A stretch of 64,000 nucleotides of DNA from Daucus carota subsp. sativus (Eukaryota > Streptophyta > Magnoliopsida > Apiales > Apiaceae): the NCBI RefSeq assembly GCF_001625215.2, contig NC_030389.2, positions 2,330,930-2,394,929 on the forward strand, written 5' to 3'. A model generated the notes under the pieces. That model saw only the letters and a list, made by a program, of their open reading frames with translations, searched no databases and was not told the origin of the DNA. Below are positions 24,140 to 61,882 of this stretch, in pieces; the stretch's first letter is position 1, and each line of letters opens with the position of its first letter. A program made the position numbers and the translations under genes.

Positions 24140-24639
24140 TCAATTGCATCTGGAGTTTGTGCAACCATAACACCACCAAGGTACGCCGTCTGCGGTCTTC
24201 GAATCGTCGACGAGTTCTCGAGCTTGTGCAGCCAAGACAGTGAACGCGATAAGGTTTCCGATTCCCATAATAACCAAACCATAAACTATGTTATCAGAAT
24301 CATACATGAAGAGAAGACCACAGCAATGAATATCGGTGATCAACAGAAAAGAAGCTAGAGAAAACAACGCAGCATATCGGAAAGCTATCCAATTCTTACT
24401 CCATACCGCAACGTTCCTACGAAAAGCACGATCAGAATTATGCATCTTTCGAATCATTTAAACCAAATTAAATTTTTTAAAAATGAGAGACGAAGTAAAA
24501 TATTTATTATTCACCTGTAAACGCTAGATTCTTGGCCAAGTTTCACAGCTTCGCGAGAAGACTCGTAGGTGACGTCATGTGGATTGCTTCTTGCATATTG
24601 GCTGACGACATCATGTGGTTTGCTTTGTTTTTGCGCCAT
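24140..24639 (-). CDS. Family A membrane protein, copy A1
   Basis: Two exons on the minus strand, complement of 24515-24639 and 24140-24416, with a 98-nt GT-AG intron and 133 aa in total. I do not recognise the family. Exon 1 encodes a hydrophilic 42-residue head with an internal repeat (KPHDVVSQ and NPHDVTYE). Exon 2 (277 nt) starts with VAVWSKNW, then has two hydrophobic helices separated by a short loop ending DNIVYGL, and a tail ending GVPWWCYGC. Three other copies in this window share this second exon. A1 is the most diverged. The small two-helix layout suggests an endomembrane or plasma-membrane protein. The intron phase matches the other copies, which supports the model. Confidence 0.75.
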
Positions 24640-24963
24640 CTTGGCGATTCTGCTACGCACTTTTGCAGCTCCGGCTGTTTCGAAACAAGTCTTTCAATAA
24701 TATCAGCAAGTGTCAATTAGTTGGCCAAAAGAAGTCTTTATCCAATTTGACAATGTTCTGTTGATATTATTATATTAATGAAATGTGGGCATCTGGATAC
24801 ATCCTGTCCACACACGGATGATAATCGTAGTCGGCAAGTCTCGGAAACTTACACTACTATACTGTATACGCTAATTTTTTTATAAAATCTATGTAGTTGC
24901 GTGTACATAGATATGCAAAACTACTACTCTCTCTATCGTGTACATAGATATGCAAAACTACTA
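24640..24963. other. Upstream region of A1
   Basis: Probable promoter side of A1. From about 24899 to 24975 a roughly 48-bp unit (words gtgtacatagatatgc and actactctctctat) is repeated twice in tandem. Confidence 0.4.
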
Positions 24964-25267
24964 CTCTCTCTATCCCTCTCATTTGTTTACGGTTACTATT
25001 TTAGTATGTCCCTCTCATTTCTTTACATTACCATAAATAATAAATTTTTCTCATCATTACACCCACTATCTTCCCCCACTATCTCATATTTAACAATAAA
25101 AATTACTATTACACCCACTACTTTCCTCCACTATCTCAAATCTATTATTAAATATTGATAGTTCCCACCACTTTACCCACTTTTTATCTAACTTTACTCA
25201 TTTTTCATACATTGTCTTGGTCTCCGTGTCCCCCTCCAATATAAACAATTGAGGGGGACGGAGGGAG
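24964..25267. mobile_element. Stowaway-like MITE
   Basis: The left end (ctctctctatccctctcatt) and the right end (gggggacggagggag) form a decayed inverted repeat of the common plant Stowaway type, with TA next to both ends. About 300 bp, non-coding. Confidence 0.6.
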
Positions 25268-25274
25268 TATGTGG

Positions 25275-25505
25275 GTGTTTGTTTACCCCCTTAAAAGCCC
25301 ACCTTGAAGCACTTATTCGTACCGTTTGTATAATAAATCAAGAAACACTTATAAAAAGTTAGGAACGCTAGCTTTTGTTTCAGGACTTTTACTTCTTTGC
25401 CAAACACTTTAATCACTTATAAGTCTTAACTAGGTTTTAACTTTTACTCCACTTTTTTATTTTAAGCAAGAAGCACTTATTTTAAGCTCACCCAAACGGT
25501 CCCTA
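25275..25505. repeat. Dispersed MITE-like repeat, member 1
   Basis: Similar to two other stretches in this window (33023-33258 and 45240-45617). All share aagcaagaagcacttatttt-like and cacccaaacg words near one end. The best copy (45.2 kb) has inverted termini, so this is probably a non-autonomous DNA transposon family. Confidence 0.5.
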
Positions 25506-26548
25506 TATCCATCCGAATTTTGAGGAGCTCTAAAACTTGCGGAAGACACGACTAATATTTTACTTTTTTTAAGAAAAATCCTAGAGACCCTGGAAAATTA
25601 TTTTAAAATTTTTCCTAAATGATGTGTAAAGTGTGATTGGTTGCTTTCACTACCATGATAATCACCCAATCATAATATTTCACGTTTGTGTCACATCATT
25701 TGGTAAAAATTCTTGGAGAAAAATTTGGTTCACGTAGCATTATCCTTTTAAGAAAATAAATAGACCAAATTAAAAAAGAGTGCGGGTTCACCTTCCGGTC
25801 AGGAATACTATCCTGTTCATATATATGCAAAAGAACTCTATCCATCCGAACTTGAAATGCTCCGAAACTTCCGAAAATGCTCCTCAGTCACAACTAACAT
25901 TTTCCCTTTTAAAACAACTATTTGTTTAAGTATTTTTTATTTCACAATCAGAGTGTAGTTCACAATTAGGAAGTGATTTAGACTGGATTCTGATAAGTGT
26001 TTTTTATTAATAAAATCATTTATGTATCAAAAATAAATATTTTTACACGTTTTTTTATTAATAATTCATCCGATTAAGAAGAGGTATTTGTTCACTTCAG
26101 GATCATGAAATGCAATTCCTGTCCCGAACTTCAAACCAGTTCTTAAACCCCCCACCCCAATTTCCGAAAGAGGATTCTCTTGCTCTCTAAATTCGGGAAA
26201 TTTGTTAAATTTTTTAATTATAGTTTAGTTAATAATATAAATTTTAATTAAAATAATATTAATAAGTCATTGTATATAAAATGTCTCTACTTTTATATAA
26301 CATTCGGAATATTAATTCAAATTACTACTCATTTATAATAAAATTAAAAGATAAAACTAGATTTATTATTATTATTTTGCATTATGAAATGAAAAAATTT
26401 AAATAATAAAATGACGAGAATTATTTAAATTAAAAATATATACAGATTTGATTAAGACTCAGTTTTTTATGATAGTGACTAAAGTCTGTAGCAAAGGCTT
26501 GCAAGGAAATTGCAGATAACTAACAGATTCAAGCAATGTACATGATAA
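25506..26548. other. AT-rich intergenic, no gene seen
   Basis: Only scattered short words shared with other intergenic stretches (for example near 25790-25870). No coding signal. Confidence 0.4.
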
Positions 26549-27667
26549 AGAGCATCTCCAACGGCGTTGGCTATAATTGTTGGCTAAATTGAACCTGTAA
26601 GACATTATGTAAAATTTGCTGAACCTGTAAGACATTGTACTTCAACGGTATTGGCTATATTAGAGAACGGTATTGGCTATATTAGAGCATCTCCAACCAT
26701 CTAAAGCCCTTAGCTAAAAGATGAGTTGGCATACTTAAAATAAAAAGATTTAGCCAACAGCTCCAAAAACTCAACTCCAACCATGATCAGCTGTTGTCTA
26801 TAAATTTAGCCAACCTCCTATGGATGGCTAAATTTGTCGAACCTCTACAGGTCTGTAACAAAATCTGTAGGAAGATTGTACATCATTTATTACCAGATTG
26901 AACTGATATATTCTATTTTAACAATTTAAAATATTAGTACTTCAACGGTATTGGCTATATTAGAGAACGGTATTGGCTATATTAGAGCATCTCCAACCAT
27001 CTAAAGCCCTTAGCTAAAAGATGAGTTGGCATACTTAAAATAAAAAGATTTAGCCAACAGCTCCAAAAACTCAACTCCAACCATGATCAGCTGTTGTCTA
27101 TAAATTTAGCCAACCTCCTATGGATGGCTAAATTTGTCGAACCTCTACAGGTCTGTAACAAAATCTGTAGGAAGATTGTACATCATTTATTACCAGATTG
27201 AACTGATATATTCTATTTTAACAATTTAAAATATTAATAACATACTATTTTTAAATTATAGCCAACCAATGTAGCCAGTACCATTGAAGCAAAATGTCTT
27301 ACAGGTTCAGCAAATTTTATATAATGTCTTACAGGTCCAATTTAGCCAACGATTACAGCCAATGCCGTTGGAGATGCTCTTAGTTGGCTATAATTTAATA
27401 ATAAAATGTTATTTATATTTTAGTTTGTTAAAATAGAATATATCAGTTCAATATGGTAATAAATGATGTGCAATCATCCTACAGATTTGTTACAGACCTG
27501 TAGAGGTTCGACAAATATAATCATCCATAGGAGGTTGGGTAAAATTATAGACAACAGATTCACGTGATTGGAGTGCGATATTTTCAAGAGGTTGGCTAAA
27601 ATTTTTAAATTTGAAATGCCAACTCACTTTTTAGCTAAAGGTTTTGTATGGTTGGAGATGCTCTAAC
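26549..27667. mobile_element. Nested MITE complex with perfect 300-bp tandem duplication
   Basis: The ends agagcatctccaac and gttggagatgctct mark two overlapping inverted-repeat pairs, an outer one (26549-27380) and another (about 26683-27666). Within it, 26641-26937 and 26941-27237 are identical at a period of exactly 300 bp, and an inverted, diverged copy of the same unit lies at about 27400-27666. This is best read as MITE insertions into MITEs followed by one recent tandem duplication. Confidence 0.7.
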
Positions 27668-27952
27668 AATACAATAGAATCCTTTGTTTCTTGCATTCTT
27701 ACTATATCCGTGTATTATTAATGTCAGACGCCCAATTCCGTCAAAAAAATGCTAGAAGCCCAATACAAATAAGCCCCATATAAATAGGAAATAATCAGAT
27801 TTGAGATTAAACACTTGCAAATGCAAAATGTACCCATGCAAAATTTGATTAATATTGGGCCAATCCTAATCACATATGACGATGCATTTTCAGGGTAGTT
27901 GTGGGTTGCTCGGACAGGCCCGTTTATCACTCGGCAAACTTAGGGGTCATTT

Positions 27953-28608
27953 GTTAAATCTGGACCTTTTTTTCTGAATGATTGAAATCTGAATGAACGA
28001 ATAATCTGAATGGTTTATGAAAATTGTTGTTTGTTAATTTATTTTATCTGAATGACAAAAATCATGAATTTAATATATTTTTTGAAATCATATAAATTTA
28101 ATTTATTAATTATTATATATAACATATATTATTTAATCTAAGTCATTTTGTCCGGCTAAAATTCATTGCAGGTTCAATAATCACCATTTCTTTTGGTGTA
28201 TAATTTATTATACTATACAATATAATATATACTTATTTTTTATTTTTTTATATCAATTCGATAATAATTTAATGATTAAATTTTCAATCATCAAACTAAA
28301 AATTCTATAATTTTATAATTTTAAATGAAGATATAAATAATATTATTAGTGAATACATGTAAGAAATAGTGATTAAAAAATTAAATACGATAATACATGA
28401 TATGTGTCATAGTACTGCGCCTTGGGGTAATATACAGCGTCGTGTGATTTAAATGATTCTGGATGGTTCAGACAGATTTTTTTAGGTCAGTCGTCCAGAA
28501 GATTATGGAGTCGTCCAGCTGCATCATTCTATTATCAAACAGTCTGAATGGATGCAAAAGCACTCGTCCAGTTCAGTTGGCTTGGTTCACCCGTAAACAA
28601 ATGACCCC
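27953..28608. mobile_element. PIF/Harbinger-type MITE (Tourist-like), member 1
   Basis: 656 bp with termini GGGGTCATTTGTT and AACAAATGACCCC and a TTA target duplication on both sides (27950-27952 and 28609-28611). It is related to the element at 46586-47189, sharing the ends and internal words around the 3' side (ctgaatgRatg, ctcgtccagtt). No coding capacity. Confidence 0.8.
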
Positions 28609-28611
28609 TTA

Positions 28612-29011
28612 GAGCAAGTCCAAGAGTTCCCTAAATTGATGTCCTAAATTAAGATTTAAGATATTTGAAGCAAACGAGTGTTCCAACCTTAAAACACTAG
28701 GACATCCAATAAATGTCTTATTAATGAGACACTACTATGCATGTCCTAAATCATTTTAATCAATAATTTTCTCCTTCCTACTTTTCATTTCCCTTCCACA
28801 GTGATTCAAATATATTCTTATTTTAATAATAAGGCACAATAATAAGGCATATTGTTGGAGTTGATATGTGGAGATGAAGTCCTAAATCACTAGGAAACCA
28901 TTTTTTATAATATTTATAGGACACTTACTAGGACATTGTTGGTGTTGTTCTTGTATGCACAAAATAACAAATTTTATGATATCCTTTATTATTATATAAT
29001 ACCCGAGTCTA
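28612..29011. other. AT-rich spacer with a faint MITE-like repeat
   Basis: Repeated 'cctaaat' and 'aggacatt' words run from agagcaagtccaag to gttggtgttgttctt, resembling a decayed inverted-repeat element. No target duplication was identified. Confidence 0.3.
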
Positions 29012-29365
29012 CCTGGTCTCCGGTTAACCAATCAGAAAAAAAAATTTATTATAACACCAATCGAAAATCATTCATGAATTTTAGACCAATAATATTTTTC
29101 TTCAACTTTCTTCTATTAAATTTTAACTAAAATACTAGTTTATTTCAAAAAAAAAAACTAGAATACTAGTTAACCAATCAAAAAAGAAAAATTATTTTAG
29201 TACCAACTATAAAACTACTCCTAAATTTTAGACCAATAATATTTCTTACCCAACTTTCTTTCTATTTAATTATAACTAGGATCCCAATTAACCAATTAGG
29301 AAAAAAAAAGTCACTCCTAAATTTTAGAACAATAATATTCCTTCTTCAACTTTCTTAAAAATATA
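29012..29365. repeat. Imperfect tandem repeat, three copies of about 115-130 bp
   Basis: The words gttaaccaatcaRaaa, ctcctaaattttagaccaat and caactttctt recur in order three times, starting near 29023, 29168 and 29288, with increasing divergence and a deletion in the third. Confidence 0.6.
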
Positions 29366-29838
29366 ATTATGTATGATATACAATTTTTTATTAGATTATG
29401 TCATGTAGTCGGCACTATCAGTTAAAAATCGATCAAATTGTAAGAAAAATGATTTTTTATTAAAATTTATCGATCTTAGTTTTATAAAGAATTCAAAACA
29501 ATAATTAAAATTAAAAAAAAATCAAGATTATTCAATATAATCGTTTCTGGCTCTTCGTTTCTATATACAAATACTTATTAAAACATGTTTAAATTCATAA
29601 TGCATGTTCAATATATATTTAATGATTGTGCAAGGATTCTAGAGTATAGTGTTATAATTGCTAGGAACCATTAATCAAATCATATTTTTGTAAACCTTTT
29701 TCATCTAATGACCAAAATGGAAGGTAATACATAATCCAATAACAAATTAGCCTATTTACCTTGACTTCCTTAGGCTGCTCGGTTTAATCTGTGGGGGCAC
29801 TTTAGAACCCTTTGCGGTGAAAGACACTTCTTCTTGCA

Positions 29839-31469
29839 ATGGGCTTAAACCTTACTCGCATCTGCCGTGATTTTCTCGAGCTGTCTGAAGCTGGTAAATC
29901 TGGGATTTCTGTGTTAATATATGTGTTTATCTGTCTTATACTGTTGTGAACTTATCTAGATAGAGCTCAATTCTTACATGTTTTTGTTCACCAGGCACAA
30001 GGTGGATTGAAGAGACACGTGATCGCTATGTTAATTCTGTAGTACTTTGGTTTCACATGAATAAGGAGCAGATCTTGATTAAGGTTTTCTTCTTAGTTGT
30101 ATTCATGTTTGTGAGATTGTGTCTAAGTCATGGCTCATGACTTGCTGAATTAAGTAGAGGTGTTGATAATATGTTGCTTTTTATATTGCTTTTTATAAAT
30201 TACCTTTGTGTTTCGTATATTAACTATTGTTTTTACAATTCCTTTGTGGAATATGTTGCATATTAATTACGGTATGTTTTAGGTTTATGAATAACAATCA
30301 ATAAGTTTGGCCAAAAGGTTTGTGCAAGTGGAAATTTCATTTTGAACACTGAAGTTTATAGAATATTATATCTGCAGTGATGACTCACCAAAATGTTCAA
30401 GTTTAATTTGTGCAGTGTTGTATTGAATTGGAATTAATTGCTTTGAGTTGCTTACAGAGCTTCATCCTTTATAATTTATATCTGGTGACAAACATTAGCA
30501 GTTTCTCCTTATTTTTGGGCTTTAAATGTTTTTCTTTTGGCTTAATGACCTTTTAGCCCTTCAAGTTTGGGTGGAAGTTCCGATGCGACCTCGAAGTTTA
30601 AAAACGTACCTTTCGACGTTGGTATTCAAATTTGCGATTACTCTTTTAAGTCTATATCTCAACTTACTTTATTCTTTGAAAATACTATGAGGACTTGTAT
30701 CTAGATTGGTTTTCAAAGGTTTTCAATGCTACTGTATCATGAAATGTAGATGAATCAAGTGCATTTCTAGGTAAATACATTTGATAAGATAATGTGAAGT
30801 CTGAAATTGGAAGAAGAGAGTTGTTTGTACTATCTAATTGGCTTAGTTTGATTTTTTGAAATTTATTAGAAATTACCTGTGTGTTTTGTAAATAATTTGT
30901 TGCCTTTCCATCTTCTTTACTTAATTTATATATGACGACAGAGATTATATGACCATGATTTACATCAATCAGCCCTGTACAGATTTCTTATTCTATCTAC
31001 ATTGTTAATGCAGTTTGAAATATCAACTTTGAGTCCAGTTTTAAGCTTTAACTCTGAGCTAAAATCATGTCATATATTAACTGATCCCTTGTAATAATAA
31101 TTTTAAGACTTAAAGCACAATTTTATGTCATGTGTATAACACAATTTCATTCTTCGTAACTGCTTGTACGAACTTGTTTCCAGATTGGTTTTATATCTGT
31201 GTTTTGATATGTTTTTATATATGCAGTTCAAGAAGAACCCGGTTCTTTGTGTGGCAGTTGTACTTCTGCTGGCACTCATTGTCATTCATAGCCCTATTCT
31301 AGGTTATGAAGGGGCTGTACCGAGATGGATAGCGAGCTGGATAGCATGGATGTCAATTTTTGCCGTTATCAGTCTCACTTATCAGATTTTTGTGGAAATG
31401 AAAAGATTCAAGTTAACATGGAAGAAATATAAGAAAGTATATTGTTCAGGTATGTTATTGGACACCTGA
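29839..31469 (+). CDS. Family B membrane protein, shortened copy B1
   Basis: Three exons are modelled: 29839-29893, 29995-30083 and 31227-31469, in phase, giving 128 aa. Exons 1-2 encode a hydrophilic head (RICRDFLELSEAGTRWIEET) seen in no other copy here. Exon 3 starts FKKNPVLC and has two hydrophobic helices around the block GYEGAVPRWIASW, then FVEMKR. This matches the first half of B2 (GNEGDVQRWKASW) and B3 (FVEMKR). The second half (NHHM...DWKM and the GACK helix) is missing. Out-of-frame DNA at about 31480-31550 can be read as a faint remnant of the last helix. So B1 is either a truncated protein or an early pseudogene. Confidence 0.55.
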
Positions 31470-32865: not shown

Positions 32866-32896
32866 CTAGCTTTTTAACCCGTGCAAAGCACGGGTT
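32866..32896 (-). mobile_element. Helitron-like 3' terminus, minus strand
   Basis: On the minus strand: a perfect hairpin AACCCGTGC-TTT-GCACGGGTT, then AAAAAG, then CTAG followed by T. This is the classic plant Helitron 3' signature. The element body would extend toward higher coordinates; I could not place its 5' TC end. Confidence 0.6.
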
Positions 32897-33022
32897 GTTT
32901 TAAATATTTTTTCAATATATCTTGTATCTTTTTGTTCATTTTTTCTAAATTAAGATTATTTGTATTATAAACGTAATTTAAATGTAATATTTGTTTGTAT
33001 TTGAAGTCATATCATCAGTATG

Positions 33023-33699: not shown

Positions 33700-33742
33700 A
33701 TATTTATAATCATTCGAATGTGTGTGTGTGTGTGTGTGTGTG

Positions 33743-36599: not shown

Positions 36600-36772
36600 C
36601 GAATCTACAAAAACGCGCCGTGTTCCACCTTTCCTCTGCTCTACTCTACTTAAGAAACTCCACTGCTACTTATTTCCTCATTTTCCACTGTTCACGTTCA
36701 TTCTCACGCCTGATAATCTCGCCGCCGGCGTCGGAGCTCCGGCGACCTAGTAGCGAACGCCGACTTAGCAAG
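36600..36772 (+). promoter_or_regulatory. Probable B2 leader exon
   Basis: A pyrimidine-rich, then GC-rich stretch without ATG that ends at a donor (agcaag|gttaaa, 36772). The acceptor (ttttttgcag) ends at 37374, 11 nt before the B2 start codon, giving a leader intron of 602 nt. The transcript start is not defined by sequence alone. Confidence 0.45.
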
Positions 36773-37385
36773 GTTAAAAATTCTTATTATAATTGCTTTA
36801 CTTTCTGTTAGCAAGGTTGAACAGATTCCTTAGAGTATGTTAATGTTGCTGAATTTTATATGATCCTTGATTCCCTTCGATCTTGACTCTTACGGAACAA
36901 AATTTTATTTGAATTCATCACCTGAAAATCGATATCGAGTTATTGATATTAATCCACTCTTTTATTTTGTGTATCTGTAAATTAGATGTAGACCTTATGC
37001 GATATGGAACCCTATGATGTTATGCGATATGGAACCGATGATGTTTTACTTATCATCGAGTCTGTTTGGATTGCTTTTTTATAATTTTGTTTCGCGGTGA
37101 GTTACAGGAATTTATGTAATGTTGGTATATGGATTTGAACTATTTTTTAAGCACATTATTGTAATTGTTTGAAGTCATGAGGTTAACAGAAACAAGAAGA
37201 TTAGAGTTGAACATTGAATTGCTTAATATGGATTTGTAATGCGTTGAATTGAATTAGAATTGAATTGCTTGCTCTGCCACGTGGTGAGTATTTAGGGAAC
37301 ATGTATGGATTTCTTGTTGTTTTCAAGTTGTTTTTTTTATTGTTTTTTGATGAAATTGTTTTAGTTTTTTGCAGTTCACGGAAAC

Positions 37386-38681
37386 ATGGATGTTTGTTTG
37401 AGAGCTGTGTCGGAGCTAGCAATCATAGCAATAGCTAAGCCTCTTTTAGGGAATGAAGGGGATGTACAGAGATGGAAAGCTAGCTGGGTAGCAGGCTTTG
37501 CGACGTATTTCATTGTCTGTCACTCTATTAAGATCTGTGTGGGAATGAAAAGAGATCAAGTTGCTCTAAGAAACAAAACAGAAGTTTGTGCTTTCATACT
37601 AAAATATATTTTGCAGTTTCTGGTCCCTCTCTCACATTCTTCACTAGCATATGCTTATCTCACCGGGATTGAGACAAAAAATCATCACATGGAAGATGAT
37701 TGGAAAATGGTTGCATTGGGTATAAGAGTACTCACTCTTGTAGTAGGAAGTTTGTTAGCACTCATGGGTGCTTGCAAGATATGTTATTCAGCAGCTAATG
37801 AGCAGTATCAGATAACTGCTATTCAAACAAATGTGGAGAATGTATCAGGACTCGGACAGTGGGATGTGGAGAATCAATCATTTGCCCCGGAAGAGATACA
37901 AATGGATGTGGACGATGACTCATACCCAGATACATTTTTATCACACTCGGATGTCGAGACTCAGTTACTTGCAGATGCAAATGTATCGGAAGAGCCACAG
38001 ATGTATGAGGAGAATCAATCATTTTCAATGGAAGAGATACCATTGGATGTGGATGATCACTCATATCCTGATGCATGTTTATGGGACTCGTTGGAGGGTG
38101 TGGAGAATCATTCACAATCAAATGCAAATGTATTGGAGGAGACACAGAGGAATATGGAGAATCAATCATTTGCACAGGAAGATACACGATTCGATGTGGA
38201 GGACCACTCATATCCAGATGCATGTTTATCGGACTGGTTAGAATGTGCTGTGGAGAATCCATCACTTGCAGATGCAAATGTATCAGAAGAGGTGCAGAGG
38301 GATGGAGAGGATCAATATATTGCAAGTGAAACTGTATCAGAAAAGGTGCAGAGGGATGTTGAGAGCCGACCATATTTTATGGATCTGAAAGAATGGCCTG
38401 AGTGTCTTCCATCTACATCAGAATCTACACCAGATGTGATGGAATTCGTGAATCTATGGGAATGGGATAGAAATGGATTTACAGATACAAATGATCTGAA
38501 ATTGTTACTCTGGGATGTGGATAAGCAATTTTATGCAGATGCAACTGTAATAGAAGAGGAACAGAGATATGGGGAACAATTCATTAGCAGATGCAAATGT
38601 AATGGTACAAATGACGGAGGATCAATTACTTGGAGATGCAAATGTATTGCTAATGCAGATGTATTGGAGCAGCTTTCCTGA
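37386..38681 (+). CDS. Family B membrane protein with acidic repeats, copy B2
   Basis: 431 aa in one exon, start ATG at 37386. Residues 1-140 hold about four hydrophobic helices with markers GNEGDVQRWKASW, LAYAYL, NHHMEDDWKMVA and LMGACK. From about 150 the protein is a long acidic region of imperfect repeats built from ENQSF-x-x-EEI, DVDDHSYPDACL and ENPSLADANVSEEVQRD. The same ENQ...AD...QRD words occur in B3. A one-base shift near 38579 takes the reading out of the repeat register, so the last 30 residues (Cys-rich) are probably frameshifted; in the other frame the repeat words continue for about 40 more codons. A membrane location is likely. Family and function are not recognised. Confidence 0.8.
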   Translation: MDVCLRAVSELAIIAIAKPLLGNEGDVQRWKASWVAGFATYFIVCHSIKICVGMKRDQVALRNKTEVCAFILKYILQFLVPLSHSSLAYAYLTGIETKNHHMEDDWKMVALGIRVLTLVVGSLLALMGACKICYSAANEQYQITAIQTNVENVSGLGQWDVENQSFAPEEIQMDVDDDSYPDTFLSHSDVETQLLADANVSEEPQMYEENQSFSMEEIPLDVDDHSYPDACLWDSLEGVENHSQSNANVLEETQRNMENQSFAQEDTRFDVEDHSYPDACLSDWLECAVENPSLADANVSEEVQRDGEDQYIASETVSEKVQRDVESRPYFMDLKEWPECLPSTSESTPDVMEFVNLWEWDRNGFTDTNDLKLLLWDVDKQFYADATVIEEEQRYGEQFISRCKCNGTNDGGSITWRCKCIANADVLEQLS

Positions 38682-39286
38682 CAGGAATAAAGTATGTCCG
38701 TCTTAATTTTCGAATAGAGTTGAAATTGGGGATACATAGCTGCTTTAGTTTATTTATCTATGACTTGCTTGTTTTTTGTGTATTAAGTGTTTTGCTTTCA
38801 TCGTCTTCATTAAAGATATTGCTTATATAGATACCATTGCAAGGAATATATACGTCTTATATGTAAACCTGTGATGTTTGACTTCATCATCAACGATAGA
38901 TGTTATGGTTACTTACTTCTTATATTACGTGACATAGGTGAATGGATTTACACTACTAGTTAGTGGCTGCACTCAATTGTTAAATCATTCAAATTCACGA
39001 GGACAAACTAAGAAGACCAGAGTCAGTTTATAATAGTTATTTGAAATTTACTTACATATGTGGGGTTTGTTTCATCAATAAATGGATACTAGCTATTTTT
39101 AGCTGCAAAATTTTTCTTCTAAACCTTTAGAACACAAAATTTTGGATCATCCATGATTTGTTGGAAAATTCGTCTAAAAAATCTCCCTTTTTAGCATTAG
39201 TTTTGAGGCAGTATATCATTCCCTTGTTAGATTTCATTATTCTATTTTTGTCAGCGTCGAGTTCTCTTGTTGTTTTTGTTCTTAAG
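38682..39286. other. 3' flank of B2
   Basis: No gene seen. Contains the probable 3' untranslated region. Confidence 0.4.
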
Positions 39287-39490
39287 AGTTCAGCTGGTGA
39301 TTAGTTACTTTAGGTCTTTCATGTCTTCCTTGGTCTCTCTCTTTTTCTTTCTTTTTTTCAGAGTTCAGCTGGTGATTAATTACTTTAGTCTTTCATGTCT
39401 TCCTTAGTCTCTTGGTTTTTTTGTTCTTCAGAGTTCATCTGGTGATTAGTTACTTTAGGTCTTTCATGTCTTCTTTAGTGTGTCGTTCTA
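39287..39490. repeat. Tandem repeat, three copies of about 72 bp
   Basis: Each copy contains agagttcagctggtgatta, gttactttaggtctttcatg and tcttcctt, separated by T/C-rich tails. Copies start near 39287, 39360 and 39430. Confidence 0.8.
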
Positions 39491-40320
39491 GTTTCCTACT
39501 TTAGTTCGTTTCACAGCTTGTTTAGTCTTGGTCTAGATTAATAGAATAAAGAGAAAAGATATACGACTAGAGAATTTATTATTATAGGCAACATGTTCTC
39601 AATTATAATGGAAGATGTGCTTATATAGCCAATTTCTAAACAATAATTAATGAAATAGGTATTGACAAGGAAACTATAATAATAACACAACTATCCTATG
39701 ATATTTTAACATAGATGACCGCATGTACCCTGTTTCTCTATCACTTGATGAATATTAGCTTTTAAAACAAAACCATAAGTTATTGGCAATTCTATCTGTA
39801 CTCATCTGTCAATAATAGATTTGAAGGTCTTATTAGCTGTCAACTGAAGGCAATTATAAAATCGCAACTCTGCTTAGCGAGTCAAATGTAAGCCGTACTC
39901 CATCTCTCCAATTCAATTTCAGCAAATTAAGTACAATTAAACTGAACTTCATATAGTCAAACACTCTAATCAAACTAGAGGGACTGGAACCTAGTATCAA
40001 AAATTTTACTAAGATGTCAAATTGTTTCTTAGTATAATTTGTATTCTATGTTCCTCAGAACTTCATATATGGTCTTCCCTAACAATATAATCTAGTCAAG
40101 CCAAAATTTTGTCATGATTCTCTATTTTAAATACAGAAACTTTATAATATTGACTCAGTAGTCAACTAAGTCCTCGAGACTCCTTGGCTAAGTGCCTAAG
40201 TTCATAATTCCTGTTAAGGCAGCCAGTTTCCATTGGAAATGTGTATAGGAGCGGCTGGCAATTGTTTTACTACAAAATGAGCTATCGTAGTGTTAATTTC
40301 ACCTCCACGAATATAAATTT
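39491..40320. other. Intergenic, no gene seen
   Basis: No open frame, repeat or element boundary that I can support. Confidence 0.4.
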
Positions 40321-40800
40321 TATTCCCTCTTTACTTGTGTTAAAGGAGGATTTTGGTTAACAAGATTTTTATGATTTTGGGGATTTTGGGTTTATGAAAA
40401 AAGAGGGCCTGAGCTTGAGAGATGTCTCGATTTGTCTCGGGTATCAGATTTCATATCTCAAGATGCCTGCGTAACCATGTTTTTTAGGATTAAGCACACG
40501 CAGTTCCGTTATATACTAAGGGATAAGCTAAGTTAAATAGTGAATTAATTAATTTTAATCTGATATAATTTTCGAGTCGTGATATCTTCCGGAATTAAAA
40601 GATATCATTTGGAGATATTTTCTGTAATTGTTGATTCTTTCCTTGTTTCAGTGAGAGGATAATTACTTGTGGGCAAGTAATTAATTATTAATCTGAATTA
40701 ATAAAAGAAATTAGGAGATTATTAGAAAAAATAGGCTATCCAAAAAATGGCATAAATACTTGTTCCTTTATTCTCTCAAGTTATTAACATCCTCATTTCT
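40321..40800 (+). repeat. Possible LTR fragment
   Basis: The run of words ggttaacaagatttttatga, ctcaagatgcctgcgtaac, acgcagttccg, and a TATA-like cataaata near 40750, has the look of a decayed plant LTR. No partner LTR, primer site or target duplication was found. Confidence 0.3.
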
Positions 40801-43685
40801 TAGTTACTTGGCAAAATTTGAGCAGTGTAGATAAATTGGTATTAGAACAGAACAAGGTCTTGGAAGGCAGAAGTTGTGTGTTATTTGGAGTAGAAATGGA
40901 CAACGAGCAACAAAAACATGATAATGAAGCATGAGGAGTCAATACTGACATAGAAACCAAATAGGAAGGCTTACAACTCCCATTCAAAGTTCATGAAGCT
41001 AATACCGATGAGCATTTGCCATGATTAGATCAAACAAAGAGATAGAAAGGAGTATTGAAAGGTCTTACAGCTTATGTAGTAAATAGAAGTGGAAGAGCCT
41101 TTCTTTAATACTATTCTACTGTTGCGGCTTCTGGTTGTTCATGCTACACTATTCCATCGGATATGGTGAAGAGTGAGATGCTAGAAAAATCTCAACAATG
41201 TAGCACTCAACCAAAATTCGATGATGTCGGATTATAACTTCTAGCAAGGTAAAAGGAGCAGGTATGAATGATGAAACTAAAAATCTTACTAGTGTATTTT
41301 AGCAAAAAATAGAATAAAATAGATCTCACCAGTGTAGGAACAAAGCATAACCCTGTCACTATGAGTTTGAATCAGTATATAAGGCACGCATCCCTCCTCA
41401 CTTTGCACGATGCACAACAGCTTCAATTAAGTCGCACACCTCAGCTGATTAGGCACGTGAGGCAAGGCATTCGAACCAGGTGCAAGTATATTGACCCATC
41501 AATTGTAGCTGTTGACATAGTGACCAGCAGATTAGCACTGGTTTGACAAAGTTGCCTATAACTCAAATTTGATTCCTAGATAGCTTAAATTAGGATAAGG
41601 CATTACCTTTCTACCCTGAGCCCTTTAGCTCTTACAACTTATCCGACTTTAATCACTACACTGCAACAAATTCTCCAACAGATCACCAAAACATTAGGAA
41701 CATAGAAAATAAAAACGTAAGGAAAGATGTAGAGTAATTATTTACCAGGTAAAATACGTATCAAACAATAGAACCGGACACGACAACAGGTCACTTCTTT
41801 CTCTAACAGAGTTATCATCACAGATATTGTGCAAGTTCATAGCAGTAAGAGACAGATCACGCAACTGCAAAGCAAAGCTAGGTGGGGATAAGTAAATTTC
41901 TGATAACCCCAACGATGAAGATAGATGCAATTCAGATGATTTGAACTTCCATCATATGTACCAATAGTAAAGGAACAGCATTTAGATAACCAAGTCCGAC
42001 CAAAGCCATATTAAAGCTCAACTCTGCTCAATCTTCAATAAGTTTCGACCAATGAACCATATTAAAGCTCAACTCTCCTCAATATTCGATGAGTTTTGAT
42101 CAATATGTCATATTCATTTGTTTGTGCTTTAAAGGGAATTACGCCGACTCCCCTTGATTTTTGTTATTGGTGAATAGGGTCTCGCATAAGTGATCCCTGC
42201 AAATGTGGACCGTCCACTTTCCCTCCACCAGAATTTATTGCCAAAAAGCTGGGCAAACGTATCGAACCGCAGATTCGCAGGATATATGGCCGAAGAAGAG
42301 TGGCTTATAGAAACGAAGATGTCACTATTAAGAAATGCAGTTCAGATTCTGACAAAGCAGATATTGTCAAGCCTTATAGTGAAGTTGGTTAAGCACAATT
42401 CTAATCCTGAAAGTCAATCTCCGGTTGCTCAAACGAGTCCAACTTCGAAGAAAACCAGACCAACTTTAGAAAAGTAATAGGAAACAAATTCTAGTGAGAA
42501 CACAATTATAAAATTTCTCCACTTCTGATCCTGCAAATCAATCTCCGACTGCTCAAACCAGTCCAACTTCAAAAGAAGTTTCATCATAACATATTCTGAT
42601 GAGAGCACAATCATAAAAATTCTCCACGTGAGTGAAGAGAAGGCATAATGAATAACTAAAAACAGTTTTCCTTCCAAATAAACTTAGATGAAGGATTTGC
42701 AGAAGTGACAGAATTTCATAAGTAGCGGAAATGGGTGAATTTCATAAGTAGCGGAAATGGGTTGCACAATCAACCACCTATCTCCTCTACAGATTCTTTA
42801 AAAGGACATAAATTCACAGGTTCATGTCAGAGAGTCCAGGCTCTCAAGTAGTTGAATGAAGATACAGAGACTGTTTCCCGCAACAAGCACCAAGTAATAG
42901 TAATAGATCAAAATGTTCCATGATATGCTCATGCTCTTTCAACAACATGCCTTCTAACCCTGAAGGAATGGGAGAAAATAGTTTGCAGAATAACAAGCAA
43001 TTGTAATTGATTTGTTAACTGGAAGCCAGCTTGAAATGTTCTTGACAATAAGCAACTACTCATAGTTTCTGACCGAAAAGCACGATGGTCAAACAAGTAG
43101 AATGGATATTCATGCAACATAAAAAAGTGAGTCCCCCATATAACCTGCACATTCGCATTCCATAAACAATACTTCAACCTGCCAAGTACCATATAGTACT
43201 CAGTTAATCCAACTGATAGGCCAAGCCCCGTGAGATCATGTTCTCATAATCTCTCGTTGACATGACCTAAAGGATATAAATCCATATAGCAACCTAACAC
43301 GAGTCAAATCAGATAACCAAGTAGTGCAACAGTGCATCTCAACCCATAGCCACAACCATGAACCATTAGCCAACATCGACGGCTAGCCCAACTAGTTAAA
43401 TTTATGTATCTCTTACAAGATATTAGAACATTTTCTTCCAAAAATATTAGAAAAAACAAACACACACACACACACACATATATTATATATATAATACAAG
43501 CGGGAGTCATACAAACTTTGTTTGAAGAATATTACATTCAAACATTTGTACATGCAGAATGTCTATTCAAACTAAGCCACTTACTTGGATTAAACTTTTT
43601 TATTTACGTCATAACATGCATATCATTAGAATGTCTTGCATCACCAAGGACATTTTTTATCTTAGTCCAGTCTGCCCTTGAATCT
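40801..43685. other. Intergenic, no convincing gene
   Basis: Only short frames are present and I can support none of them. Two near-identical short words (tgaatttcataagtagcggaaatggg) sit in tandem at 42704-42760. An (AC)n run lies at 43457-43476. Confidence 0.4.
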
Positions 43686-45013
43686 TTAATTACCTCTAGA
43701 GCTTGCCAATCCATAACACCAGGAAGGCACATCATTCACGGTCTTTGCATCTTGAATTAGTTCTTGTGCTTGCGAACCGAGAAAACCAAAGCCAACCAGG
43801 CTTCCAAGCCCGATTATAAACAAACCATAAACTGTGTCTTCTGGGTTGTATTTACGGAGAAGATGGAAGCAAAGTACATCCACTACCAGCAGAAAAGATA
43901 CTAGAAAGACCAACGAAATCCATCTGCCAATTATCCAGTTCTTACTCCAAACCGCAACAAGCCTACACAAAGAAACAGAAGTGAACATATGAGAGCATTC
44001 GATCAATCAGTAATTGTTCTATGCCCGACTGATATTTGGAGAAGGATGTCTGATCATAACCACCTCAAAGATAATACTCCATCTGATCCTTTATACAGGT
44101 CGTTTGACTATTTGCACATATCTTTAGGTGTTTTGAGTTTTGACTATTTGGTAAATATTTTTATTCAAAAAGAAAATTAAAATTACTAATTTTAAATATG
44201 TCATTGAAGGATTCAAATCTCTTTGTAAAAAGTCAAACAACCTATAATTAGGAGCCTGTTTGGCTGAGTTTATGCCGTATAAATTAATTAACATGACTTA
44301 TGACTTAACGTGTCATAATGTGACTTAATATAATAAGCCTGAGTTTAAAATGTTTATTTGGGTAATTTTGACTCATCGGTTATTAAAAATATAATAATAA
44401 TAATAATAACTTTAAGTCAGTTTCTAACTTATTTCTAAATTCCAACTTTAAACCGACTTCTAATATGACACCAATATTGCTTTAAGCCCAGACAAACAGG
44501 CTCTAGGCAGAACGATAACTAACTAAAGTTTGAACTTCTTGCACCTTGCCTCGACTGAACCTTATTGCTCTTCCGAGGTTGCGGGAAACAGAGACTGTGC
44601 ACCTAACCACACAATCTCATCTTTGCCCTTAACGCGGCCGATGGGGTAACTAATGTTATCTTACCAAAGGAAAAACTCGAAGCAACATCACAAACAAATT
44701 CAAATTCTCAGAAAATTTTAATAGAAACAATTTCAATTTCAGCACGGACGAACAATCAATATGTGATTAGAAGAATTAATCACCAGTAATAACACGATTC
44801 CACAGAGATTCCGAGATTTGTAAGCTGTCAGATTACGGATCCAACACAATCATAAAGAGATCTAGAAATACTTGTATGAATCACAATAGTCAAAGCTATA
44901 AAAAACTGAGAGAGTAGAAGATGAAATAAAGTGCACCTCAGGTCACTTGATCTGTCAACGAGTTTCGCAGTCTTGCCTGTCCCATATGCATCGGCAGTTT
45001 TATATCCTTGCAT
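43686..45013 (-). CDS. Family A membrane protein, copy A2
   Basis: Two exons, complement of 44937-45013 and 43686-43962; 117 aa. Exon 1 encodes MQGYKTADAYGTGKTAKLVD plus six residues. The donor is GTGCAC, which is weak, but the phase (2) and the R codon split across the junction match A1 and A4. Exon 2 is exactly 277 nt: VAVWSKNWIIGRW, helix 1, loop KYNPEDTVYGL, helix 2 with LGSLVGFGFLG, then AQELIQDAKTVNDVP and WCYGL. The 973-nt intron carries a MITE at 44252-44503. Unknown family, predicted two-helix membrane protein. Confidence 0.75.
44252..44503. mobile_element. MITE with gagcctgtttg ends, inside the A2 intron
   Basis: 252 bp. Ends GAGCCTGTTTGGCTGAG and CAGACAAACAGGCTC, with TAG on both sides (44249-44251 and 44504-44506). 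Three-base duplications fit PIF/Harbinger, although TAG is not the usual TWA. A shorter relative lies at 51681-51826. Confidence 0.65.
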
Positions 45014-48581: not shown

Positions 48582-49740
48582 TCAATCAGATCTTAGTCCA
48601 GTCAACCCGTAACACCATGAAGGCACATCATACGCACTCTTTGCATCTTGAGACTTGAATCAGCTCTTGAGCTTGAGTACCTAGAAAACCAAACCCAACC
48701 AGATTTCCAAGCCCCATTATGAACAAACCATAAACCGTGTCTTCTGGATTGTACTCACGGAGAAGATGGAAGCAATGCATGTCCACTAGCAGTAGAAAAA
48801 TGACTAGAAAGACTAACGCGATCCATCTACACCAATTATCCAGTTCTTGCTCCATAAAGTCACAGGCCTAAACAAAGATCAATTAATCTACCAATTAAAT
48901 CTAAAAAAATAATATAAATTAATAAGAAAGATTTCATTACACAATGAAATATGGATAGCGGTCCTAGCATATGATTGTACATTGTTTTCTAGCAGTTGGA
49001 TAAATATCCAGCTGTCAAGATTATAATATTTTTTTTAACATTCTAGCGCATTTTACCTGTTGGATGGGGACTCATCTAGCAGTTCAAAAACGCTAGATAT
49101 GTCATTTTAATTGTCTAGCGGTTAAAAAACGCTAACCGTGTTAAACGTATGTTATAATCCTGGCAGCTGGATATTAATTCAAAGACCAAGAATCTATATA
49201 TTATAAGGAATTTATCAAAATTACGGTTTTTTCTAACTTTTTTTGCGGTTTTACTATCTTTTGAAAAAAATACAAAAATACTAACTTTTTAAAAACTATT
49301 TGCAAAATTACTGTGTGCAACTAGATGCAACCACATACAACTTTTGTTAATTGGTCCCGTAGGAGTGGCAAATATGGTTTCAATCTAGTTGCAAGTATGG
49401 TTGCATGTGAGTGCAACGTACGTGTTGCATACAATATTTTTACAAATATTTTTAAAAGTATGATATTTTTGCAAAATACTTAAAAAAAATATAGTATTTT
49501 TGCAAAAATAATATTGGACTTAGGTATTTATGAAAAAAATCCCTATATTATATCATGGGCCCGACAATCATACGCGATGGACGAGAAACCATGAAATATA
49601 TGTTATTATAGCCTATCTTCATAATCAAATAAAAAGAATAAACATCACCTTTTTCCACTGAATCGTTCAGCTTTATTCAGAGTCTCGAGTTCTCCAGATC
49701 CATTAGCGTTAGCGACCTCAGATGTTGTGTTCCCATTCAT
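48582..49740 (-). pseudogene. Family A pseudogene, copy A3
   Basis: Exon 1 is the complement of 49649-49740 and begins MNGNTTSEVANANGSG. Exon 2 is the complement of 48582-48867. The splice phase is as in A1, A2 and A4. Two indels break exon 2. A +2 change after WSKNWIIG leads to a stop six codons later; a +7 duplication after ELIQ restores the original register, so the tail DVPSWCYGLT is again in the first frame. The middle part in its own frame is still well conserved (WIALVFLVIFLLLVD, YNPEDTVYGLFIMGLGNLVG), which suggests recent inactivation. The intron holds a TIR element at 49205-49543. Confidence 0.75.
49205..49543. mobile_element. TIR element with gttgcat words, inside the A3 intron
   Basis: 339 bp with an exact 8-bp target duplication TATATTAT (49197-49204 and 49544-49551). 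The arms aaggaatttatcaaaa and tttatgaaaaaaatccc, and inner (a)atactaacttttt/aaaagtatgatattttt words, are inverted. The centre repeats ttgcaactagatgcaacc-like words. It resembles the foldback element at 50151-50980. Confidence 0.7.
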
Positions 49741-54104: not shown

Positions 54105-54495
54105 AACGTTAACAAGGTGGAAGAGGGACCGGGGAGCAGCAATCACTATTATTAGAGTATCTCCAGGAGCCTCCTTATTGGCTCCTATCTCTTGGAGCAA
54201 CATTTTTCCTCTCCCTCCTCAAATCTCAAGTCAAGAGCCTAAATAAATAAAGAAACTCTTCGAGATGATCTTATCACAAGACCTAGAGCACCCTTGAACC
54301 TGACAAGGAAAGGAATAGGACAGGTGATAAGGATTCTCAGCCGCCACTTGATTGAAATCCAATGGCTTGTATCCTGGTTTCATAAAGTCCCGAGTCGTCT
54401 ATAAAGACTTTCACAGCTGAGGGTGTTTCCAGGAAAGTAACGACTTGATATTATTATTAGGTGCTGCTCAAAGAAGAAGAAGCAGAAGATCAGTT

Positions 54496-57400: not shown

Positions 57401-58084
57401 TCGACCAAGTCGACCGACTAGTCGATAAGTCGATCAATTAGTCGACCAAGTCGACCGACTAGTCGACAATTCGCAAGTCGACCTCTCCAGTCGATTTTCT
57501 AAACCCGACTAGTCGACTAGTCGTCGACTAGTCGCGACTAGTCGAGCGCCGTGACAACAAACTTTTGCCTCATTTCTCCTCGTAAACAGAGTTCCCCTAA
57601 TTTGAGTTGGAATTAATGAATAATTTATTGTCTTCCTTCGTGCCAAAAAAACTGTAAATTATGCAGTATGCTTTAGATAACTCAACAATTGCTTAAGAGC
57701 GGTGAGACTGATTGGAATAGCAAAAAAATATATATATATATATATCTAACTTTAGTATGCTGTTATAATCTCTCCCCTAATTTATCCACCTCTTTTACAT
57801 TGTGTAGGCCTGTTTTGTTATGGAGTAAGAACTGGATAATTGGCAGGTGGATTGCATTGTGCTTTTTAATCTTCTTTTTACTGGTCGTTGATGTGCACTG
57901 TTTTTATCTTCTACGTAAATACAACCCAGAAGACACAGTTTACGGTCTGTTAGTTATGATCTTTGGAAACCTGGTCGGCTTTGGTTTTCTGGGCACGCAA
58001 GCTAGAGAACTTATTGAAGATTCAAATACTGTAAATGATCTGCCTTGGTGGTGCTATGGGTTGACAAGCTCTACATCGGATTGA
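54496..58084 (+). CDS. Family A membrane protein, copy A4
   Basis: Two exons, 54496-54563 and 57808-58084, joined over a 3.2-kb intron; 114 aa. Exon 2 is well supported: a tgtgtag acceptor, exactly 277 nt as in A1 and A2, and the sequence PVLLWSKNWIIGRWIAL, two hydrophobic helices around KYNPEDTVYGL, then LIEDSNTVNDLPWWCYGL. Exon 1 (MKGNKTSDLNKGYARKHGDS plus EQ) is the best candidate because its phase is right and its opening resembles that of A2 (MQGYKTAD). Its donor GTTCAA is weak, so another first exon is possible. Unknown family, predicted two-helix membrane protein. Confidence 0.7.
54888..56900. repeat. Tandem segmental duplication inside the A4 intron
   Basis: DNA from about 54.89-55.64 kb recurs, diverged, at about 55.97-56.90 kb, a period near 1.08 kb. 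Shared words include gatgcactaYgctt, agtctcatct, ctctagggctgtt and gtaaagagRa. A third, short remnant (gtatgctttagataactcaa) lies near 57.66 kb. Confidence 0.65.
56950..57557. mobile_element. TIR element with cgactagtcg word repeats
   Basis: Ends ttgtcacgtcg and cgccgtgacaa are inverted. Both margins are packed with gactagtcgac words, while the centre is AT-rich. It shares its architecture with the word-repeat hAT elements here, but the termini differ and I found no target duplication. Confidence 0.55.
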
Positions 58085-58761
58085 GGATTCAATGTTAGGT
58101 GAGCTCGAGTTCGACCTGAATTGAAGCTGCAGTAAGGTTGTAATATCAGTTAAAGTCGCACGGGATGAAATCTAAGTGCTACAAATAATGTTTCATAGAG
58201 GCCTCCAAGGTTCGTCACCCGTGACGTGTTTAAAAATGAAGGTAATCTGGTTAATTTGTTTGGAAATATAGTAGCCTTTGTTAATGGTGACTCTTTCCTA
58301 TGAATATGTATTGTTGGGCTTTGAACTTCTTGTTGAAGTTCCATTACTTTTGCCTTTTGGTGTGGTAATTGTTAAATACTTTGTACTTGTGTTCTGTTAA
58401 CAGATTTATACTACCCGCTGTTATGAATTTCTTTTACAATTTTTTTGGTTAATAGTTGTTTTAACTAATTGAAAATTAGCTGCACAAGCTCATTACTGAT
58501 TACTGGTGGCTAGGTTCAAATTTAGGCCCCGATTTAGGATATATGTATAGTATAGGGTCGCGCTCCAATGTTTAAAATAGAATCATAGATACACTAAGGT
58601 TCTGCTGCAGAACCCTATAATTTTTCATAGATTTTCAGGATTTAAATTTAAATACATGTTTTTTTCATCGTTGTGTGTGTTCAAAAGTAATTTCAAAATA
58701 TAATACATAAATAAGACATTATGTGCAGTTCTGCTGCTGAACCCTAACTAACTTGAAATAA
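58085..58761. other. 3' flank of A4, no gene seen
   Basis: Contains inverted short words around gttctgctgcagaaccc (58602-58618) and gttctgctgctgaaccc (58727-58743), possibly a small decayed element. Confidence 0.35.
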
Positions 58762-59752
58762 GAGCATCTCCAGGGGTAATCCCTATACTGGTTACCTAAA
58801 AAATAATAAAATAATAGTTACTTAAAATATAGGTAAGCAAAAAGTTGTTTTACTCCAATGGTATTACCTATACTTGTTACTTATAATTTAAAAATTAATA
58901 TTTATTTAATATTTAAGGTAATATATGTGAGAAGAGTTAGAGTTGGAGTAAATATATGTTATATTATATAGGTAATATTGATGATATGGCATTATAGGGG
59001 TTGGATTTTTGCTTCCTCAAATAAGGGGATGAGTTTTCTCTCCCTTAAAATTTTTAGGGGATAGGGAGTTGCATTTAGGGGTGGCAATCGTTTCGTTTCG
59101 TATACTTTCGTTTCGTGTATTTTCGTGTTTCGTGTACTCAAAGGTAAAACCCGTATCCGCCCGTTATTAATTTCGTGTACCTAATTTGAAACCCGTATCC
59201 GTTTCGAATCGTTTCATGTATATTTTGTGTACTTTTCGTGTATATTATATATAAAAATATTAATATATTTTTTAATCAAAAAATGGATTTAATATATATT
59301 TTCCTTTATAAATTTATTAAATGTGAATGATATATATTATACTTGTATACAATTCTTCATAAATTTGTTAATGTATCTACAATATATATCCACACATACA
59401 TGTAAATATATACTTTATACTCAATTATATATTTAATATATCATTACATATATATAATAAATATAATCTACAAATATTTCGTGTACTTTCGTGTATTTCG
59501 TGTACCCCAAATGAAAACCCATATCCGACACGAAATCTATCGTGTAATTTCGTGTTCGTGTACTTTCGTGTTTCGTGTATCGAAAATCAAAACCCATATC
59601 CATTTTTTTCGTGTCGTTTCGTTTCGTGTTAGCGTGTTACGTGTCAAATTGCCAGGTCTAGTTGCATTGGAGAACTGATTTTTGATGCTAACCCTTAAAT
59701 CTTGTCCACCTAGACCAAATATGAGTAAGGAGAGTGTGCATTGGGGTTGCTC
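58762..59752. mobile_element. PIF/Harbinger-like MITE split by a hAT element
   Basis: Ends GAGCATCTCCAGGGG and CATTGGGGTTGCTC with TAA duplications (58759-58761 and 59753-59755). The hAT element at 59076-59660 sits inside, so the MITE arrived first and is about 400 bp without the insert. Confidence 0.7.
59076..59660. mobile_element. Ac-like hAT MITE with tttcgtgta word repeats
   Basis: 585 bp, with ends TAGGGGTGGCAATCG and AAATTGCCAGGTCTA. Exact 8-bp target duplication GTTGCATT (59068-59075 and 59661-59668). Both margins repeat tttcgtgta and gtttcgtttcg, and the centre is AT-rich. Confidence 0.88.
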
Positions 59753-59755
59753 TAA

Positions 59756-61120
59756 GGTAATGGTTCTGAGGGTTCTTTTTCTAATGGTTCTCTGTTGAAC
59801 ATGACCCATATATGAATATGCTTAATGTCTTCCTAATTATGAAAATAATTAGGAAAAAAGATGCTCCCATCACATCCCAATACGATATTACCGGCCTTTG
59901 CAAGAGATTATAATTGGATGGCGCTAGTATAGTTATCAGATATCCAACACTCGTATGACGGGCATAACTTTAAAGTGGTGCGAGAAATTTACGCAAATTT
60001 GAGAGAACGAACACATATGACAGATCTTACAGATAATGTCTAAAATAATAAATGTTCTAAAATATCATTTATTAATGTCGGATAATCCAGTGTTTTAATT
60101 GTTAGAAGAAAATGTTAGATCATATTGCGTTTTAAATTAAAAAAAACATACAAAACACAGCACTGACATTTTAGATTTAGAGTTTCAAAATGCTATATCA
60201 TGTAACGTTATACGCTGGAAAAGAGGATAAATGTTATACGTTGGAAAAGAAGATTGACGTTATATGATCTAGTGTTCTGGATGATAAAATAGTAGGTCAA
60301 GATCATCTTCTTCGACATCAATATTTAGGACTATTTTTTTGAAAATTATGATAATGAGGTTCAACGCCCCTTTAATATGGTACCATATATTCACACAAAT
60401 CCACGCACAAGATTGTTATTACACGGAATTATTCTGTGTTGTTTAGCTGGGCTAAAAAGCCAAGTCGGCAGCATAATGTTTATGTAAAAAATCAAATCAT
60501 CCCAAATTCCTTGCAAAAAATCAAATTGACATGTTATGAGGAGCGAGAGAGCAACATGAACAGAGATATCCATCATACACAACAAAAAGGGAAACACAGT
60601 ACTTGATCTAAGGAACACACTGCTAACTTTTCAAGAAAACAAAGCAAACTATTCACGTATAAAAACAACTATATTCTTCCTACCATGAGCTCATGGCTTG
60701 AAATCGGCACAAATGTATTCAACTAGAACAGCAATCGACTAAACTACATCACAATAATACAAGGAGCACGTAGCCATAAACAGTTGGAATATATGGAGTC
60801 GAACATCATAGGTTTCCAAAACAGGACAATCTATGTTACAGTACAGATTGTCTTGCAGCGCGCAACACGCAAGACTACGACAAATACAATCATCCTGACC
60901 CAGACTGGACCCTTAATTTCGTTTAAACAGAGTATAAATGACATATACAGGCCGGGTTCCAAAACGTATCAATCAAACACCTTTCTGTTGTTGTAGTATC
61001 AAGTATAAGGGAAATTACTTACACATATATAAATTCATCCAGTTAGCAAGAGGAAAGCGAGATGCTGTAACCAAATTTTTAAAAAATCAGTACCAGCAAA
61101 CACATCTGGAAGATCGTTTC
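59756..61120. other. Intergenic; 3' side of B3
   Basis: No gene recognised. The part next to 61120 probably contains the B3 3' untranslated region on the minus strand. Confidence 0.4.
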
Positions 61121-61882
61121 TCAGCATTCCTGCACTGCCGCTTCTGGTACATCTGCATGAGCCTGTGTCTGATTTTCCGCATCATCCCTCTGTATGACTT
61201 CTGGTGGATCTGCATTCGGCTGATTCTCTGAATCCCGTACACTAGCAGTAGCACCCGCAACAGATTGATTTTCAGCATGCCTCTGCACTACTGCATCACT
61301 GAAATTTGCAACATTTTGATACTGTGCATCCCTTGGTAACACACCAGACGCCAGAATTCTTTCATTCCAATTGCGTGGAATGTTGTGGGTCATACTAACT
61401 GGAAGTAACTGATTCTGCTCATTACGTGTCCAATAATACACTTTACAGGCACCCATGACTGCTAACAGGCCGCTTAATATATCGATGAACATCTTTATGG
61501 CAGATGCAGCCATTTTCCAATCATTTTTCATGTGATGATTTTCTAAATGAAGCTCCTTAAAATAGGCATAAGCTAGTAGAAGATATAACAAAGGAAGTAG
61601 GAATTCCAAACCATGAGTTATGGTGAAAAAACAAACCCTTTCATTGTTCCTCGTATTAACATAGTGTAATGTTGGAGTAAGTTGAGCTCTCTTCATTTCC
61701 ACAAAGACCTTAAAGCAGTAAGAGAGAATGGCAAATATAGCAATGCTTTCTATCAATCTAACGGTCCATAAATGTGGTTCAGTAGGCAACAAGCTAGTTA
61801 AAGCTGCGATTTCTAGCTGAAATAGAACTCCCAGGCACTCAGTTGGGTTTCTCCTAAACTGGGAAAAAAGAAAGTTAAACAA
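61121..61882 (-). CDS. Family B membrane protein, copy B3
   Basis: 253 codons if read from the ATG at 61882. However, the bases before 61858 form a perfect acceptor (tttcttttttcccag), and B1 has its acceptor at the same place (before FKKNP), so the true exon may begin at 61858 with an upstream exon I could not find. Features: FRRNPTECLG, helix, FVEMKRAQL, helix with LLLAYAYFKEL, NHHMKNDWKMAA, last helix with LLAVMGACKVYYW, then a polar tail with three short repeats: AENQSVAGATASV, SENQPNADPPEVIQRD and AENQTQAHADVPEAAVQ. These match the long acidic repeats of B2. Predicted membrane protein of unknown function. Confidence 0.72.
   Translation of the reverse strand: MFNFLFSQFRRNPTECLGVLFQLEIAALTSLLPTEPHLWTVRLIESIAIFAILSYCFKVFVEMKRAQLTPTLHYVNTRNNERVCFFTITHGLEFLLPLLYLLLAYAYFKELHLENHHMKNDWKMAASAIKMFIDILSGLLAVMGACKVYYWTRNEQNQLLPVSMTHNIPRNWNERILASGVLPRDAQYQNVANFSDAVVQRHAENQSVAGATASVRDSENQPNADPPEVIQRDDAENQTQAHADVPEAAVQEC

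Follow-up and report, generated by a model that had tools for sequence, protein, structure and literature searches.

A carrot gene array of two interleaved families of predicted membrane proteins, probably co-duplicated

Two interleaved gene families in a tandem array

The window analysed here is a 64,000-nucleotide stretch of the genome of carrot, Daucus carota subsp. sativus (contig NC_030389.2, here C9, positions 2330930–2394929), and the genes in question form two families of putative membrane proteins, A and B. The original prediction had placed seven members in the window, A1 (24140–24457, minus strand), B1 (31164–31469, plus), B2 (37386–38681, plus), A2 (43686–44006, minus), A3 (near 48854, minus), A4 (57689–58084, plus) and B3 (61121–61882, minus), and all seven were found at these places and on these strands. 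Similarity within each family exceeds chance: with A4 as query, A2, A1 and A3 were recovered at expectation values (E) of 1.8e-44, 4.5e-27 and 2.0e-25, respectively, and with B3 as query, B2 and B1 were recovered at 4.6e-23 and 6.6e-5. The interleaved 38-kb cluster described at the outset is present, but it is a slice of an array of about 370 kb with 15 A and 24 B loci.

The extent of the array was established by searching the 441.1-Mb assembly (11 contigs), with match counts that are lower bounds for both families. The A4 query gave 18 matches, 17 of them in C9:2.1707–2.5241 Mb and one at C4:26.996 Mb. For family B, the B3 query gave 23 matches, and a longer and a third B query gave 24 each, all within C9:2.176–2.540 Mb except one C4 match with E 0.04 and two stops; no credible B copy was found outside the C9 array in the genome search with these three queries. 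Five small fragments (at 2170.66, 2223.9 and 2435.6 kb and, found later, at 2227.6 and 2522.5 kb) were left out of the locus count and of the junction test described below. The array thus spans C9:2.17–2.54 Mb, carries about 40 interleaved A and B copies on a single chromosome and almost certainly exists as described here. We read it as a tandem array specific to the lineage of this member of Apiaceae. Synonymous divergence (dS) between A copies reaches about 1 among the 40 lowest-dS of 78 pairs, which suggests that the array is old and common to many Apiaceae. Gypsy- and copia-like elements, judged by eye, lie within it, and its left edge adjoins a bHLH gene (C9:2168427–2169849, HLH domain at 39 bits).

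The one A gene outside the array (C4:26996009–26996480) is lone and diverged, with its own exon 1 and 29–42% identity to the array copies. Its neighbours are Agenet-like, glycosyltransferase-like and TIR-NBS-like genes (by eye), and a match to the S1 family lies 0.5 Mb from it.

The view that neither family matches a described one is supported by the searches. Neither A nor B reached a Pfam cut-off, for a transposon protein or any other family, in a profile search in which the spliced B model L013 was cut after its helix core; the strongest sub-threshold match was Fibrinogen_BP on the repeat tail of B2 (30.1 bits, cut-off 50). Nothing credible for either family was found in the PDB by profile or by fold search, and no confirmed relative in a search of viral contigs.

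Gene structure, predicted proteins and constraint

The open reading frames listed in the original prediction are real members, but most of them are second exons whose upstream ends are intron. In family A, exon 2 follows a tract rich in pyrimidines with TAG or CAG at its end, and an exon 1 with an AG/GT donor in fitting phase was found at 8 of 16 A loci (array plus C4 copy), among them A1 and the C4 copy; none was found for A4 in the upstream scan within the window. Full A models comprise 117–133 amino acids (n=4). Exon 1 is highly variable among copies and exon 2 is conserved, with P-x-W-C-Y-G near the C-terminus invariant in 11 of 11 aligned sequences and with both acceptor and stop kept at 12 of the 15 A loci. 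AlphaFold2 models exon 2 as a helical hairpin (predicted local distance difference test score, pLDDT, 77; three sequences), and hydropathy agrees on the hairpin. At C9:2210384–2210593, the hairpin of an A fragment continues in frame into an upstream reading unrelated to the family; this may be a fusion or a relic.

In family B, a polypyrimidine-CAG acceptor precedes exon 2 in 15 of the 16 copies with a recognised start (18 examined). Exon 2 encodes 136–435 amino acids in the 16 copies read, and the one full spliced model has 237. An upstream exon that adds one hydrophobic segment was found in 4 of 16 upstream regions, with like reading frames beside two more array copies; a fifth candidate, that of the copy at 2425.7 kb, differed from these four and was left out of the count, and the upstream scan within the window found no exon 1 for B1, B2 or B3. 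Hydropathy of three models, two of which (L010 and L013) were cut after the helix core, gave four to five hydrophobic segments. The tail is often acidic; of 294 residues in that of B2, 69 are acidic and 15 basic. The GACK helix proposed as the mark of family B occurs in B2 and B3, but B1 ends after its second helix and lacks it. The acceptor scan recognised no acceptor for B1. A copy at C9:2190608–2190910 breaks off after helix 2 just as B1 does and has 82% DNA identity to it, so that duplication may have acted on the short form itself. A tail-like reading frame follows that copy at C9:2191153–2191497. Other B copies, such as those at 2206, 2227 and 2233 kb, have internal stops.

Table 1. Features of families A and B in the window (window coordinates)
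Feature	Position	Strand	Basis or remark
A1 exon 2, two-helix hairpin, stop included	24140..24416	-	Acceptor TTTTCGTAG/G; family match
A1 exon 1, variable N-terminus, 41 amino acids plus split codon	24515..24639	-	ATG-to-donor open reading frame; AG/GT, phase 2; 98-base intron
B1, truncated copy, helices 1–2 only	31227..31469	+	Start by alignment; matches B3 residues 4–69 only
A+B block, B2 to A2	36708..43990	.	Collinear, inverted with C9:2446285-2452361; intergenic DNA partly included
B2 exon 2, helix core and long acidic tail	37374..38681	+	Acceptor out of register with other copies
Tandem repeat in B2 tail, 147 bases (49 amino acids), 3.2 copies, 76% matches	37856..38324	+	
A2 exon 2	43686..43962	-	
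A2 exon 1	44937..45013	-	
A3 exon 2, frameshifted pseudogene	48631..48867	-	Frameshift in exon 2
A3 exon 1	49649..49740	-	
A4 exon 2	57808..58084	+	Family match
B3 exon 2	61121..61858	-	Acceptor CTTTTTTCCCAG

The two families differ in the ratio of nonsynonymous to synonymous substitution (dN/dS, or omega). Pairwise Nei–Gojobori estimates had a median of 0.29 for A exon 2 (78 pairs, C4 copy included) and 0.73 for the B core (120 pairs), and maximum-likelihood estimates were 0.28 for A exon 2 (12 array copies) and 0.64 for the B core (14 copies), with 0.47–0.59 in three subsets of B. The likelihood model held kappa at 1, and the C4 A copy, the window's B2 and the copy at 2425.7 kb were left out of these runs. 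Fixing omega at 1, a value confirmed in the fixed runs, lowered the log-likelihood from -1989.1 to -2050.5 for A and from -3949.8 to -3961.6 for B; both families are therefore constrained, B weakly. Among the 45 lowest-dS of the 120 B pairs, values at larger distances approach or exceed 1, for which saturation and errors of alignment may be responsible. By region, the ratio of nonsynonymous to synonymous differences (pN/pS) in eight chosen B pairs was 0.64 and 0.53 in the loops predicted to lie outside, 0.36 in the inside loop and 0.77 in helix 4. Family B is thus a case of fast evolution in which these comparisons found no signal of positive selection.

Duplication of A+B segments and possible joint function

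The order of A and B along the array is close to random (18 runs against 19.4 expected), and their relative orientation departs from chance. Of 17 A-B junctions, 14 are between opposite strands, against 8.7 expected (P 0.008 by permutation with strands shuffled within each family, an optimistic value because tandem copies are not independent). Within the window, the block from B2 to A2 (Table 1) matches its inverted counterpart through its segments 36708–36808, 37340–37925, 42296–42453, 42520–42897 and 43155–43990. Duplication of at least one A+B block is well supported by this collinearity, and co-duplication of A and B as put forward in the original prediction is quite probable in view of the block, the junctions and a weak correlation of A and B distances.

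We propose that a segment with one A and one B gene on opposite strands would have been duplicated repeatedly, sometimes with inversion, and that single-family duplications and retrotransposon insertions would later have mixed the order, as in the B run at 2.23–2.30 Mb. A would be a small protein whose predicted topology is a hairpin of two membrane passes, both termini facing the cytosol; it keeps the hairpin and the C-terminal PWWCYG-like motif and varies in its N-terminus from copy to copy. B would be a fast-evolving membrane protein of four to five helices with an acidic, sometimes repeat-extended tail that is predicted to be cytosolic. It is reasonable to infer that the two function jointly in a membrane, where A might serve as the conserved partner of a variable B in a complex whose diversity would be useful, as in recognition or defence loci; the topology, the contact between A and B and a recognition role are all inferred. 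Taken as a whole, with joint function included, we regard this model as tentative.

Several observations weigh against it. Only one A+B block is cleanly collinear, and the flank of A2 also matches, over 1293 bases, an A copy at 2310 kb that shares its strand with the nearest B; the intergenic DNA common to the block may therefore partly be A flank only. Another likely pair of blocks (2388–2392 against 2409–2429 kb) is rearranged. The correlation between A and B distances (r 0.40, P 0.046) is weak and comes from eight chosen nearest pairs, covering 8 of the 15 A loci. Seven B copies at C9:2.23–2.30 Mb lie on one strand with no A between them; duplication of a single family therefore happened too. 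The genome searches with B found no match near the C4 A gene. No B region had a pN/pS above 1 in the eight chosen pairs, and the four-helix AlphaFold2 model of the B core is of low confidence (pLDDT 55, two sequences).

One neighbour test was fixed beforehand, that of the S1 family (PF05938). The choice followed from Papaver, in which the pollen determinant PrpS, a small multi-pass protein, is linked to a gene of this family. The genome has 30 S1-family matches, and the one with the highest score (C9:2544489–2544791) lies about 4 kb outside the outermost B copy. The gene at this right edge of the array (C9:2544408–2544809) has an open frame of 134 amino acids; judged by eye, it has four cysteines in its S1 domain and probably a signal peptide. 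About 0.026 matches would be expected in the array or within 5 kb of it under independent random placement, although S1 matches are in fact clustered. None of 18 RNase T2 matches in the genome fell in C9:2.1–2.6 Mb, and there is thus no sign of an S-RNase locus in this interval. In a review, Papaver PrpS and Ipomoea SE are described as multi-pass, lineage-specific proteins with no known domains or relatives (PMC13033167).

An explanation about as probable as our model is that A and B are unrelated, lineage-specific neighbours that were copied together by segmental duplication in transposon-rich DNA and share no function. Co-duplication needs no joint function, and this account is further favoured by the lone A gene on C4, the B-only run, the very unequal constraint on A and B and the retrotransposon reading frames seen by eye inside the array; the 14 of 17 opposite-strand junctions and the many open copies retained under purifying selection argue against it. 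We hold it as a serious, still tentative candidate. Were co-duplication all that occurred, the array would still show clearly that two sets of membrane genes, neither represented in the family library searched, can expand as pairs. Decay is the possibility that the whole array is non-functional, as A3, B1 and the stop-bearing B copies might suggest; retention of exon 2 with its acceptor and stop at most A loci and omega values well below 1 make this unlikely. Derivation of the genes from a transposon or virus is still less probable: the surroundings are transposon-rich (by eye), but the genes are spliced and constrained, occupy a single locus plus one C4 copy of A rather than being dispersed through the genome, and show no transposon domain above a Pfam cut-off; the viral contigs searched gave no confirmed relative either.

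A further possibility, raised by the type of protein and the S1 gene linked to the array, is that of a recognition locus resembling that of Papaver self-incompatibility, in which B, or A and B together, would be an atypical multi-pass receptor and the linked S1 protein its ligand. The position of the genome's best S1 match at the array edge would fit, as would the multi-pass, domain-less nature that the review gives to PrpS and SE (PMC13033167). Against this stand the presence of 24 B loci rather than one, the lack of detected positive selection in B, the location of the S1 gene outside the A-B pairs and the 30 S1-family matches in carrot alone. PrpS is described as confined to Papaveraceae, with no homologues elsewhere (PMC13033167), and fennel, another member of Apiaceae, is described as lacking self-incompatibility (PMC12057180). 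This reading is improbable, and we consider it similarly doubtful that the array is an Apiaceae recognition supergene, arisen separately in asterids, whose co-duplicated A and B would be diversified receptors for the S1 protein. An array of two membrane families without Pfam matches and an S1 gene at its edge nevertheless provides named candidates for atypical receptors that lend themselves to simple tests.

Other features and comparison with known systems

Elsewhere in the window, a gypsy-like retrotransposon (kind judged by eye) occupies 9686–15301 on the plus strand with an uninterrupted reading frame of 1871 amino acids, and further large reading frames lie on the opposite strand at 16498–19408. 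A frame at about 2–367 resembles, by eye, the C-terminus of a Helitron helicase, and frames at 1118–1441 and 4561–4935 resemble RPA-like OB domains (by eye). At 21093–22350, LLAASNTWGAHFHF-like readings are repeated in several frames of a satellite-like tandem stretch. On another contig, C7:311843–437665 contains a tandem array of matches to PR-10 (Bet v 1 family); a protein joined from two exons there reached 245 bits with Api g 1 and 242 bits with Dau c 1, the allergens of celery and carrot, but only 124 with the next PDB protein, a contrast that by itself places the plant almost certainly in Apiaceae.

The B core resembles the MARVEL membrane domain in its four-helix size. MARVEL (PF01284) was rejected as an assignment for B, with a best score of 15.8 bits against a cut-off of 32.8 and matches in 2 of 10 members.

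With the S-locus of Papaver rhoeas (PrpS/PrsS), the array shares a predicted multi-pass protein without a Pfam match and an S1-family gene nearby. That locus has two tightly linked determinant genes, one of them the single receptor gene, whereas the array has 24 B loci together with family A and an S1 gene only at its edge; PrpS is about 20 kDa, and many B copies are longer. The SE1, SE2 and SEA proteins of Ipomoea trifida are likewise lineage-specific and multi-helix with no other domain, and several homologues occur per locus; the SE receptors have four helices and B has four to five segments in three models, a likeness drawn by description only. Linked to the Ipomoea receptors is a gene for an AB2-like ligand with eight cysteines. 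Lineage-specific tandem gene clusters are a general feature of plants, and the array resembles them in its local expansion, pseudogenes, transposons and growing copy number. It differs from them in that two unrelated membrane families have expanded together, mostly on opposite strands.

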